Shown: positions 5,109 to 18,282 of the stretch, in pieces | Numbering within the stretch: the stretch's first letter is position 1 | How the letters are laid out: each line of letters begins with the position of its first letter | Assembly (NCBI RefSeq): GCF_003634585.1 | Contig: NZ_RBLG01000004.1 | Span: forward strand, 62,001-126,000 | Reading direction: 5' to 3' | Origin: Gillisia mitskevichiae | Lineage (GTDB): Bacteria; Bacteroidota; Bacteroidia; Flavobacteriales; Flavobacteriaceae | Length of the DNA: 64,000 bases | Position numbers and translations under genes: made by a program | Notes under the pieces: model-generated | Database searches by the model: none | Told to the model about the DNA's origin: nothing | What the model saw: the letters and a program-made list of their open reading frames with translations, nothing else

Positions 5109-5116
5109 TTTGATTT

Positions 5117-5143
5117 TGAATTCAAATATAAATTGAATTCAAG
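5117..5143 (+). repeat. Duplicated palindrome TTGAATTCAA downstream of rpsJ
   Basis: The palindrome TTGAATTCAA occurs at 5117-5126 and again at 5134-5143. The copies can pair with each other as a 10-bp hairpin with a 7-base loop (ATATAAA). There is no T tract after it, so it is not a standard terminator. Confidence 0.6.
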
Positions 5144-5190
5144 TAAGAATTAACTAACATGTCCCGAGCGGTTGTCGAGGGAAAAACGGA

Positions 5191-5236
5191 AAAATACATT
5201 CAGGATTGGAAGTATTTTCAATCCTGAATATTTTTA
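5191..5236 (+). promoter_or_regulatory. Long hairpin before rplC: attenuator or leader candidate
   Basis: ATTCAGGATTG (5199-5209) pairs perfectly with CAATCCTGAAT (5220-5230) around a 10-base loop, and AAAAAT (5191-5196) can extend the stem by pairing with ATTTTT (5231-5236). The stem ends in a T-rich tail, which looks like an intrinsic terminator, yet it lies inside the ribosomal cluster 34 bases before the L3 gene. It could be an attenuator or the leader of an rplC-rplD transcript. Confidence 0.55.
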
Positions 5237-5269
5237 AATAAATAAATTTAATTTAATCAATAATTAATT

Positions 5270-5881
5270 ATGTCTGGGTTAATAGGAAAAAAAATAGGCA
5301 TGACTAGTATTTTTGACGAGAATGGAAAGAACATTCCTTGTACCGTTATTCAAGCTGGTCCATGTGTAATTACCCAAGTCAGAACCATGGAAATTGACGG
5401 GTATGAAGCTCTTCAATTAGGTTTCGATGACAAAAAGACCGCTAACAAAGCTGCCACTGGGCATGCTAAAAAAGCCGGTTCTGCAGCAATGCGTAAAGTC
5501 GTTGAATTCAAAGGTTTTGATGGGGATCACAAATTAGGTGATAGCATCACTGTAGAACATTTTACTGAAGGAGAGTTCGTGGACGTTTCAGGAACTAGTA
5601 AAGGTAAAGGTTTTCAAGGTGTAGTAAAGAGACACGGATTTGCCGGGGTAGGACAAGCTACTCACGGTCAACATAACCGTTTAAGAGCCCCTGGATCGAT
5701 TGGTGCTGCGTCATATCCTGCAAGAGTATTTAAGGGAATGCGTATGGCTGGCCGTATGGGTGGTGACACAGTAAAATTAGAAAACTTAAGAGTTTTAAAA
5801 GTAGTTGCAGATAAAAATCTACTTGTTGTTAAAGGATGTGTTCCTGGACACAATAACTCATATGTAATCATTCAGAAGTAA
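5270..5881 (+). CDS. rplC: 50S ribosomal protein L3
   Basis: 203 residues, normal for L3, an early-assembling 50S protein reaching toward the peptidyl transferase centre. Begins [19 protein letters not shown] and contains the conserved [17 protein letters not shown] and [18 protein letters not shown] segments. The start is the ATG after the structured spacer. Its TAA shares one base with the ATG of rplD, suggesting translational coupling. Confidence 0.98.
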
Positions 5882-16179: not shown

Positions 16180-16572
16180 ATGGCAAAAACTCAAAAAACT
16201 GCTCAAAAGAAACGTAAAGTAATCGTTGAGTCTAATGGAGAAGCGCATATTACTGCTTCTTTTAATAACATCATTATTTCTTTAACAAATAAAAAGGGAG
16301 ATCTTATCTCTTGGTCATCTGCCGGTAAAATGGGCTTTAGAGGATCTAAGAAAAATACTCCTTACGCTGCTCAATTAGCTGCAGAAGATGCTTCGAAAGT
16401 TGCACATGAAGCTGGTTTAAGAAAAGTGAAAGTATATGTTAAAGGACCAGGAAATGGTAGAGAATCTGCTATGCGTTCTATACACAATGCAGGAATTGAA
16501 GTAACCGAAATTATCGATGTTACTCCTTTGCCACACAATGGATGTAGACCTCCTAAAAGACGTAGAGTTTAA
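16180..16572 (+). CDS. rpsK: 30S ribosomal protein S11
   Basis: 130 residues with [20 protein letters not shown] and the C-terminal [17 protein letters not shown], both diagnostic for S11, a platform protein near the E site. A 91-base structured spacer separates it from rpsD. Confidence 0.98.
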
Positions 16573-16591
16573 TTAATTATTAAGTATAAAC

Positions 16592-16646
16592 GAGAAGGCA
16601 ATAAGATTATCGAAGGACAGTGACCTTAATTCATAATCGCATTCTC
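16592..16646 (+). promoter_or_regulatory. Nested stem structure before rpsD: S4 leader candidate
   Basis: Three nested helices lie in the 91-base rpsK-rpsD spacer: GAGAA (16592-16596) with TTCTC (16642-16646), GATTAT (16605-16610) with ATAATC (16633-16638), and AAGG (16613-16616) with CCTT (16624-16627) closing loop ACAGTGA. The helices are separated by unpaired bases, as in a protein-binding RNA, and no T run follows. S4 is the feedback regulator of the alpha operon in several bacteria, so this is a likely S4 site (inference). Confidence 0.6.
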
Positions 16647-16663
16647 ACAAAAAACAATTTTCA

Positions 16664-17269
16664 ATGGCAAGATATACTGGTCCAAAGACTAAAATAGCGC
16701 GTAAATTTGGCGAGGCTATATTCGGAGATGATAAGTCTTTCGAAAAAAGAAATTACCCTCCGGGACAACATGGTAACAACCGTAGAAGAGGTAAAAAATC
16801 TGAATATGCAATCCAGTTAATGGAGAAGCAAAAAGCAAAGTACACTTATGGTGTATTAGAGCGTCAGTTCAGAAACATGTTTGATAAAGCAACCAGATCA
16901 ACCGGTATTACTGGAGAGGTTCTTTTACAATTATGTGAATCTAGATTAGATAATGTAGTTTACAGAATGGGTGTTTCTCCTTCTAGGAGTGGTGCGAGAC
17001 AATTAGTTTCTCACAGACATATTACTGTAAATGGAGATGTACTAAACGTACCATCTTACCAAGTGAAGCCAGGAGATGTAATTGCGGTAAGAGAGAAATC
17101 TAAATCTTTAGAAGCGATCACAAATTCGCTAGCAAATTCAAGTGCCACTTATGAGTGGATGACCTGGAATAATGAGACTAAGCAAGGAACTTTTGTTTCT
17201 GTTCCTGCAAGAGTACAGATTCCAGAAAATATAAATGAACAATTCATAGTCGAATTATATTCGAAATAA
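16664..17269 (+). CDS. rpsD: 30S ribosomal protein S4
   Basis: 201 residues. Begins [20 protein letters not shown] and has the S4 RNA-binding domain in [10 protein letters not shown] and [21 protein letters not shown] primary 16S binder and translation fidelity protein. The first zinc-type cysteine cluster of some S4 proteins is absent, so it is a C- form. The structured leader before it suggests autoregulation. Confidence 0.98.
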
Positions 17270-17289: not shown

Positions 17290-18282
17290 ATGGCAATACT
17301 AAATTTTCAGAAGCCCGATAAAGTTATAATGATTGATTCCACCGAATTCGAAGGGAAGTTTGAGTTTCGCCCTTTAGAACCAGGATATGGATTAACTGTT
17401 GGTAACGCTTTAAGGAGAGTACTGTTATCATCTTTAGAAGGATTTGCAATAACTTCAGTTCGCATTGAAGGAGTTGATCATGAATTCTCTACTATCCCTG
17501 GGGTAGTAGAAGATGTTACAGAAATTATATTAAACCTAAAACAAGTAAGGTTTAAAAGGCAAATTGATGAAATAGACAATGAAGCCGTTACAATTTCTGT
17601 TTCTGGACAAGAGCAACTTACAGCTGGTCATTTCCAAAAATTTATCTCAGGTTTCCAGATCCTAAATCCAGATTTAGTGATTTGTAACTTAGATAAAAAA
17701 GTGAGTTTCAATATGGAACTTTCAGTGGAAAAAGGTCGTGGGTACGTTCCTGCAGAGGAAAACAAAAAAGCAAATGCACCATTAGGTACTATTTTCGTTG
17801 ATTCGGTTTACACACCAATCAAAAACGTAAAATATAGTGTTGAAAACTTCCGTGTAGAGCAAAAGACTGATTATGAAAAATTGGTTTTTGAAATTATCTC
17901 GGACGGTTCTATTCATCCTAAGGATGCATTAACAGAAGCTGCAAAAACTTTGATTCACCATTTCATGTTGTTCTCTGATGAGCGTATTACGCTTGAGGCA
18001 GATGAGATAGCACAAACTGAAACTTATGATGAAGAATCCCTTCACATGAGACAGTTGCTAAAAACCAAATTGGTAGATATGGATCTTTCTGTTAGAGCTC
18101 TTAACTGTTTAAAAGCTGCTGAAGTTGATACCTTGGGTGATTTAGTATCTTACAACAAAAACGACTTGATGAAGTTCCGTAATTTCGGGAAAAAATCTTT
18201 GACCGAGCTTGAAGAGCTTGTGAACAATAAAGGTTTAAACTTTGGAATGGATCTTTCAAAATATAAATTGGATAAAGACTAG
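17290..18282 (+). CDS. rpoA: RNA polymerase subunit alpha
   Basis: 330 residues. The N-terminal dimerisation domain shows [20 protein letters not shown] and [18 protein letters not shown]; the C-terminal domain (about 255-325) contains [20 protein letters not shown] and [18 protein letters not shown], the part that binds UP elements and activators. Twenty bases after rpsD and 42 before rplQ. Confidence 0.98.

Follow-up and report, generated by a model that had tools for sequence, protein, structure and literature searches.

An RF03141 leader RNA before rpsD in Gillisia mitskevichiae and candidate S4 leaders at the same position in other Bacteroidota

The S4 site of Escherichia coli lies before rpsM. 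According to the relevant passages of PMC10931766, regulation by ribosomal protein S4 has been demonstrated in other bacteria; in the alpha operon of E. coli, translational feedback by S4 involves a pseudoknot and entrapment of the 30S subunit, whereas in Bacillus subtilis rpsD lies apart from the alpha operon and is directly preceded by an S4 leader, with a conserved GUAA that is described as imitating rRNA (PMC7247131). Bacteroidota ribosomes rarely use Shine-Dalgarno pairing, which raises the question of how the ribosomal proteins of this phylum repress their own synthesis. Ribosomes of Bacteroidia are reported not to recognise Shine-Dalgarno sequences, with the exception of rpsU (passages in PMC9976891 and PMC10931766).

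The closest described system is the S4-Flavobacteria leader, Rfam family RF03141, which originates from Eckert and Weinberg 2020 (PMC7247131). Table 1 of that paper gives S4, Flavobacteria, rpsD, rpoA and rplQ as the regulated genes, the rating Y and 'Prior' as the basis for the ligand; that is, S4 was assigned because it is the ligand of other leaders. In the sections of the paper that treat it, the motif is said not to resemble rRNA or the other S4 leaders in any meaningful way, and no experiment or S4-binding data on an RF03141 leader were found in the open-licence literature. RF03139 (S4-Bacteroidia) is likewise a hairpin leader before rpsD in a related lineage and, by the same sections, has no meaningful similarity to RF03141 beyond the hairpin.

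A listed leader with an additional outer helix

The window, by which we mean the whole stretch of 64,000 nucleotides of Gillisia mitskevichiae DNA analysed here, covers part of a long ribosomal-protein operon, and the leader described below is internal to that operon. A spacer of 91 nt (16573-16663) separates rpsK (16180-16572) from an ORF on the forward strand (16664..17269) that we take to be rpsD, from the protein that it encodes and from its place in the published RF03141 context; its product S4 is the presumed ligand, and rpsD would be the first regulated gene. Downstream, on the same strand and in the same operon, follow what are presumably rpoA, encoding RNA polymerase alpha (17290..18282; named from the protein and the operon order), and rplQ, encoding ribosomal protein L17 (18325..18828). 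The adjoining gaps rpsM-rpsK, rpsD-rpoA and rpoA-rplQ measure 8, 20 and 42 nt, against 91 nt for the spacer, so that the initial annotation, which spoke of a tightly packed operon, was broadly right. Another gap of the same operon, 161 nt long (5109-5269) and followed at 5270 by an ORF that is presumably rplC, had no Rfam match at the gathering threshold.

A cmscan search of the whole window with Rfam 15 at gathering thresholds returned a single match, the RF03141 S4-Flavobacteria ribosomal protein leader at 16605-16638 (46.3 bits against a gathering cut-off of 35.2; E 3.3e-6 over the 64-kb window). Comparison with the Rfam ribosomal protein leaders thus names a family, above its cut-off. The proposal in the initial annotation of an S4 leader before rpsD, and not before rpsM as in E. 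coli, agrees with this match and with the genes rpsD, rpoA and rplQ given in PMC7247131, where S4 is the ligand by analogy. Since a leader before rpsD-rpoA-rplQ was already proposed in that paper, the position is the published one and not a novelty. The window element and RF03141 share 33 of 33 model positions, the core structure, the place directly before rpsD, the downstream genes rpsD-rpoA-rplQ and the lineage. The model, of 33 positions, stops at helix P2, and the outer helix P1 and the 5' loop of the window element fall outside it (PMC7247131 was compared by its text). The same search gave no match to RF03139 in the window and none of the E. coli alpha-operon kind or of the B. subtilis type; GUAA is absent from 16592-16646, folding was nested-only, and the possible long-range helix P0 considered below is nested as well. 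Unlike the E. coli site, the window element lies between rpsK and rpsD, although S4 feedback on translation and the gene cluster would be the same.

The MFE fold of the spacer (-11.2 kcal/mol) is a hairpin of three nested helices at 16592-16646 on the forward strand, just as had been described for this gap. The outer helix P1 joins a 5' arm GAGAA-G-GC (16592..16599) to a 3' arm GC-A-UUCUC (16639..16646), with 16592-16596 paired to 16642-16646 and 16598-16599 to 16639-16640 around the mismatch G16597.A16641. An asymmetric internal loop AAUAA (16600..16604) leads on the 5' side from P1 to P2 and thus to the RF03141 core (16605..16638), which consists of P2 (16605-16610/16633-16638), the bulged C16611, the pair G16612-C16632, P3 (16613-16616/16624-16627) with its loop 16617-16623, and the 3' loop AAUU (16628-16631). 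The internal loops mentioned earlier are therefore present, AAUAA on the 5' side and AAUU on the 3' side, and the P2/P3 hairpin of the family is kept. A 17-nt A-rich stretch (16647..16663) connects the end of the leader to the start of rpsD. The element belongs to a listed family, and its outer helix extends beyond the listed model. We also observed that the invariant AAGGA of P3 (16613-16617 in the window) complements UCCUU at the 3' end of 16S rRNA; within P3 it pairs with CCUU.

The energy of this fold alone is barely unusual and unconvincing. The folding z-score is -1.79 over the spacer, -2.07 over a 61-nt stretch and -1.55 over a 55-nt stretch; out of 200 shuffles, 12, 5 and 15, respectively, fold equally well. 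With the start of rpsD added (118 nt, 16573-16690), the z-score is -0.49. Values of just -0.5 to -2.1 could speak for a chance fold in an A+T-rich spacer, but this reading is already refuted by the covariation and the invariant core found across genera (see below), and we give it next to no weight. The status of the element as more than chance thus derives from comparative evidence, namely the Rfam match and the covariation of P1 and P2, and not from energy.

The lack of a T tail reported earlier holds as well: no U tract follows the hairpin, and a search for intrinsic terminators, defined as a G+C-rich stem followed by a U tract, found 0 terminator-like sites in 16400-16800. This argues against a terminator or attenuator and, together with the kept bulges and loops and the near-fixed spacing to the AUG, which such roles do not need, also against an RNA-processing or mRNA-stability hairpin setting rpsD-rpoA-rplQ apart from the upstream genes. 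Functions of this kind would suit a place inside a long operon where expression may need to change, and some relatives do carry a hairpin plus T run upstream of the leader; nevertheless, we consider them very unlikely here.

Conservation and divergent forms in the RF03141 leader

Matches to RF03141 were found in 157 of 199 genomes of the family, 150 of them above the cut-off, and in 0 of 14 controls. From the matching genomes, 130 loci of 129 genomes were taken besides the window, 30 by search and 100 added favouring lower scores. In all, spacers of the window and of 160 further loci, from 159 genomes of this family, were compared, and the core is present in 155 of these 161; one genome (G001) is represented twice, as L027 and L160, and is counted double in the spacer, core and box, distance, P0 and codon counts. 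Two Salegentibacter loci (L275, L277) carry the same leader.

Covariation was assessed by re-dealing, whereby 3' parts are given to the leaders of other species. The 134 canonical loci yielded 128 distinct leaders, the window among them; 21 loci of a bulge-less form were left out. The core is near invariant in the 128 leaders, with the closing G-C pair in 128, the bulged C in 126, AAUU in 127 and the A after AAGG in 128. For P2, 743 of 768 cells are paired, where re-dealing gives a mean of 657 (sd 4.2) and a maximum of 670. A P1 of at least 5 contiguous pairs is present in 118 of the 128 leaders; here the re-dealt mean is 41 and the maximum 55. The P1-P2 5' loop measures 4-8 nt across those 118, and 76 different best P1 helices, short ones counted, occur among the 128. 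Ten leaders fail the contiguous P1 rule, including the window, whose 5+2-pair P1 is broken by G.A. In a congener (G111, L061), the P1 arms are quite different and, by eye, pair around a C.A mismatch.

An alignment of 86 rows (from 87 sources, L050 having given no match), built with our own model R2 and hence fitted to the structure, had a covariation score of 0.405. Shuffling gave 0.173, with none of 500 shuffles reaching the score, and shifting by one to three columns gave no more than 0.163; two-sided changes occurred in 13 of 17 pairs (shuffled mean 11.0, 17 of 500 as high). The seed alignment A1 has 54 rows, comprising the window and 53 of 55 selected loci, the mis-parsed L037 and L039 being left out. 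RNAalifold applied to the 86 rows predicts P2 and P3, and P1 is absent because its register shifts by about one base between species; 72% of the P1 cells pair on this alignment. The claim for P1 thus rests on the re-dealing test and the 86-row pair counts. P3 hardly varies, so that covariation neither supports nor opposes its pairing. Compensatory changes had been called for in all three helices: they are found in P1 and P2, in both the 128 leaders and the 86 rows, and near-invariant P3 goes without support either way; in the window element, likewise, P2 belongs to a covarying helix and P3 is paired. The folded RNA before rpsD is a real, strongly conserved element.

The 21 bulge-less loci (L032-L051, L053) have neither the bulged C nor the G-C pair, and P2 continues straight into the loop in the form CUA-RAGGA...CCUU-AAUU-UAG. 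All 21 come from genomes without an RF03141 match. There are 42 such genomes, of which 34 gave rpsD and 30 had their spacers read; 23 spacers (L031-L053) hold a missed leader, one (L060) a degenerate leader, and six no leader. A cmscan rescan at E up to 0.5 covered L001 and nine loci of non-matching genomes: six that have a leader, L054 and L055, which lack one, and the worn L060. It matched only L001, the positive control, and L038, at 30.0 bits and thus below the cut-off. Part of the 42 'absences' among 199 genomes is therefore made up of divergent leaders. The six spacers without a leader (L054-L059) are 14-48 nt long and belong to genomes recorded at 1.3-2.2 Mb, some of them incomplete, which argues that S4 leader control is dispensable.

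Beyond the family, RF03141 matched 22 of 148 genomes of the order, one of them (G200) outside family f1, and 31 of 395 genomes of the class (14 in f1, 10 in f35, 6 in f48 and 1 in f20). In 26 of the 26 loci newly read in the class search, the leader lies between rpsK and rpsD. One f35 spacer (L210) differs little from the spacer of Fluviicola chungangensis (L248), a species that NCBI places in the Flavobacteriales, Crocinitomicaceae, and this part of the spread thus agrees with the published 'Flavobacteria'. A further 45 rpsD loci, drawn from the class and the order, include three (L167, L169, L191) with the canonical core and one (L172) of the Sphingobacteriaceae type described below. Within 80 named rpsD loci, which are the best 80 of 577 and an uneven sample, 30 have the canonical core and 2 are variants by pattern. 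One locus (L260), titled Euryarchaeota archaeon and taken from a metagenome bin, has a Bacteroidota-like rpsD, 71% identical to the query; the bin is probably mislabelled.

Spacing to the start codon, the presumed ligand and a possible long-range helix

Across the 145 loci in which P1 has at least 5 pairs (a set that includes L039 and L040, both mis-parsed), P1 ends a median of 14 nt before the AUG (5-95%, 12-18 nt), and the rpsK stop lies 34-137 nt (5-95%) from the core. A near-fixed distance to the AUG and a variable distance to rpsK suggest that selection acts relative to the start codon; the near-fixed AUG distance, the lack of a terminator and the A-rich stretch together suggest that the step under control is translation initiation. 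Low structure and adenines at -3, -6, -12 and -13 promote initiation in F. johnsoniae (sections of PMC6847099). A short leader at a near-fixed distance before an A-rich start is a simple, testable case of such control.

Many of the longer spacers carry a promoter-like box. TAnn(n)TTTG occurs upstream of the core in 37 of 51 spacers of at least 125 nt against 1 of 110 shorter ones, a contrast that is suggestive and not a test, since longer spacers hold more chance matches. The box changes 14 times on a tree of 154 loci; in F. psychrophilum, TAnnTTTG has been mapped as the -7 box (PMC9723704, in part). T runs of at least 5 precede the core in 39 of the 51 long and 20 of the 110 shorter spacers; by eye, a hairpin stands before the T run in many long spacers, and hairpin plus T run is followed by TAnnTTTG in, for example, L063, L064, L068 and L154. 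This arrangement suggests that many genera have come to transcribe rpsD-rpoA-rplQ separately. With the box upstream, the leader would be a true 5' UTR.

Taken together, the element is probably an RF03141 cis-acting leader through which S4, the presumed ligand by analogy, limits its own synthesis, and S4 probably blocks translation initiation at rpsD. S4 in excess over free 16S rRNA would bind the invariant core (bulged C, AAGGA, AAUU), and bound S4 would lock P1-P3 together. The S4-RNA complex, ending about 14-17 nt before the AUG, would then keep the 30S subunit off the A-rich initiation region, and translation would fall for rpsD and perhaps for rpoA and rplQ. The leader may, at a guess, also form a weak helix with codons 4-5 of rpsD, trapping the start codon. 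The other structures found before rpsD in related lineages (see below) are as expected if rpsD is the controlled gene.

Likeness to the S4 site of rRNA was considered and rejected: none is reported in the sections on this motif in PMC7247131, and shared words are at chance level, the longest one in common with the 16S rRNA of the same genome being 9 nt, a length reached by 69 of 300 shuffled leaders. This lack of rRNA likeness, and the fact that S4 was assigned by precedent alone (PMC7247131, same sections), would also fit a translational leader of the same kind with another ligand, such as S11, L17, RpoA or another factor. Yet every leader locus read adjoins rpsD upstream (27 of the 157 matching genomes and one class-search match lie outside those read), and where the promoter-like box intervenes between rpsK and the leader (37 of the 51 long spacers), the leader keeps its place next to rpsD. 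As S4 is, moreover, the proven regulator in other bacteria (PMC10931766, in part), we regard a different ligand as improbable.

The trapping of the start codon is a finer version of S4 feedback and not exclusive of it: S4 would stabilise a helix, P0, between AGUAUA (16583-16588) and UAUACU of rpsD codons 4-5 (16673-16678), both on the forward strand, enclosing the leader and the AUG, so that initiation would be prevented by entrapment and not by simple occlusion. Many loci have AAGUAUHAAC just 5' of P1, in which AGUAU can pair with AUACU, and the helix is present in the MFE fold of 16573-16690. Among the 69 loci that have AGUAUHA, UAU is found at codon 4 in 69 (background 0.58), ACU at codon 5 in 67 (background 0.45) and GGU at codon 6 in 69; in 68 loci with neither AGUAUHA nor AAUAUHA, the corresponding counts are 45, 8 and 25. 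Codon constraint in the former group is not confined to the putative helix, however. Codons 2-6 read GCA AGA UAU ACU GGU in 69, 69, 69, 67 and 69 of the loci, and codon 7 stands at 0.77, but codons 8 and 10 are likewise high, at 0.96 and 0.94, and codons 2-3 are near fixed either way (GCA in 65 and AGA in 67 of the 68 loci without the element). Furthermore, 13 of 18 loci with AAUAUHA, which belong to neither comparison group and in which the helix is broken, still keep ACU. Pairing shows no excess over re-dealt partners (z +0.6, +0.24 and +1.06; 5.40 vs 5.37), and the 118-nt fold that contains the helix has a z-score of -0.49. Tree-based pairs agree in 5 cases, oppose in 0 and are without difference in 7; with supported branches only, 5 pairs remain (median p 0.25), so that the association is not significant on the tree. 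A 2x2 table with a broader element pattern is very skewed (81/15 vs 7/52) but ignores descent, and, the re-dealt and tree tests being null, P0 is not established by it. The P0 helix with codons 4-5 is thus suggested but unproven, and we treat a start-codon trap as a possible but rather doubtful refinement of the S4 feedback proposed above.

Other structures between rpsK and rpsD

In 28 of the 80 named loci (the best 80 of 577), the same rpsK-rpsD spacer holds a different structure, for example at 545-592 of L245. The holders are Sphingobacterium, Pedobacter, Mucilaginibacter, Pelobium, Paradesertivirga and a Sphingobacteriales bin. The putative outer helix P1, UUUAAAG/CUUUAAA, is near invariant; above it, CUAAGAUUC and UGAUA form an asymmetric loop, and the hairpin on top varies freely with compensation. 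The structure ends 9-12 nt before the AUG in 27 of the 28 loci, those measured. In the seed alignment (A3, 28 rows; L172 left out), 95.3% of cells pair, two-sided changes occur in 7 of 15 pairs (6 of 500 shuffles as high) and the covariation score is 0.299 vs 0.143 shuffled; a set of 32 rows, most of them the seeds, gives 96.0% and 0.317 vs 0.129. RNAalifold on the Sphingobacteriaceae set pairs the second AAG with CUU, where we have drawn the first.

A model of this structure (R1) matched 32 of 32 loci of the Sphingobacteriaceae type and 0 of 10 others, the window included, in a panel of 42. In the class it matched 15 of 395 genomes; 14 are in f55 (L313-L326), and 14 of these 14 matches are flanked by rpsK and rpsD. 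The one match outside f55 (G594, L327) lacks an adjacent rpsD and was regarded as a chance hit. Rfam 15 had no match to the structure in 15 loci at E up to 1 and none in three loci at 0.1, and no leader reports for Sphingobacteria or Pedobacter were found in the open-licence literature. The structure is a further candidate S4 leader: like the window element, it occupies the same spacer and has an asymmetric loop under an apical hairpin just before the AUG, but its conserved loop is CUAAGAUUC / UGAUA and the two have no common core.

We lean towards the view that at least three unrelated S4 leaders occupy one spot in Bacteroidota: RF03141, here enlarged by P1 and joined by a bulge-less subclass; RF03139; and the Sphingobacteriaceae structure, which Rfam 15 does not list, with its CUAAGAUUC / UGAUA loop under a covarying hairpin. 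In part of the Flavobacteriaceae, the leader may in addition be paired to codons 4-5 as a start-codon trap. If several unrelated RNAs do bind one protein at the same place, they constitute a natural experiment on regulatory RNA replacement, in which the protein stays nearly the same while the RNAs replace each other. In the parts of PMC7247131 compared and in open-licence papers, we did not meet the P1 outer helix, the divergent core subclass, the promoter-like box or the Sphingobacteriaceae structure; relative to the open-licence papers, the last of these and the translational spacing argument are additions.

RF03139 itself was found in the spacer region of two loci, from Parabacteroides and a Tannerellaceae bin (L306 and L310). 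In both, the RF03139 region, at about 520-560, contains CGCGGCUGC, which is, by eye, the complement of the 16S rRNA 530-loop GCAGCCGCG, the 16S rRNA compared being that of the window genome.
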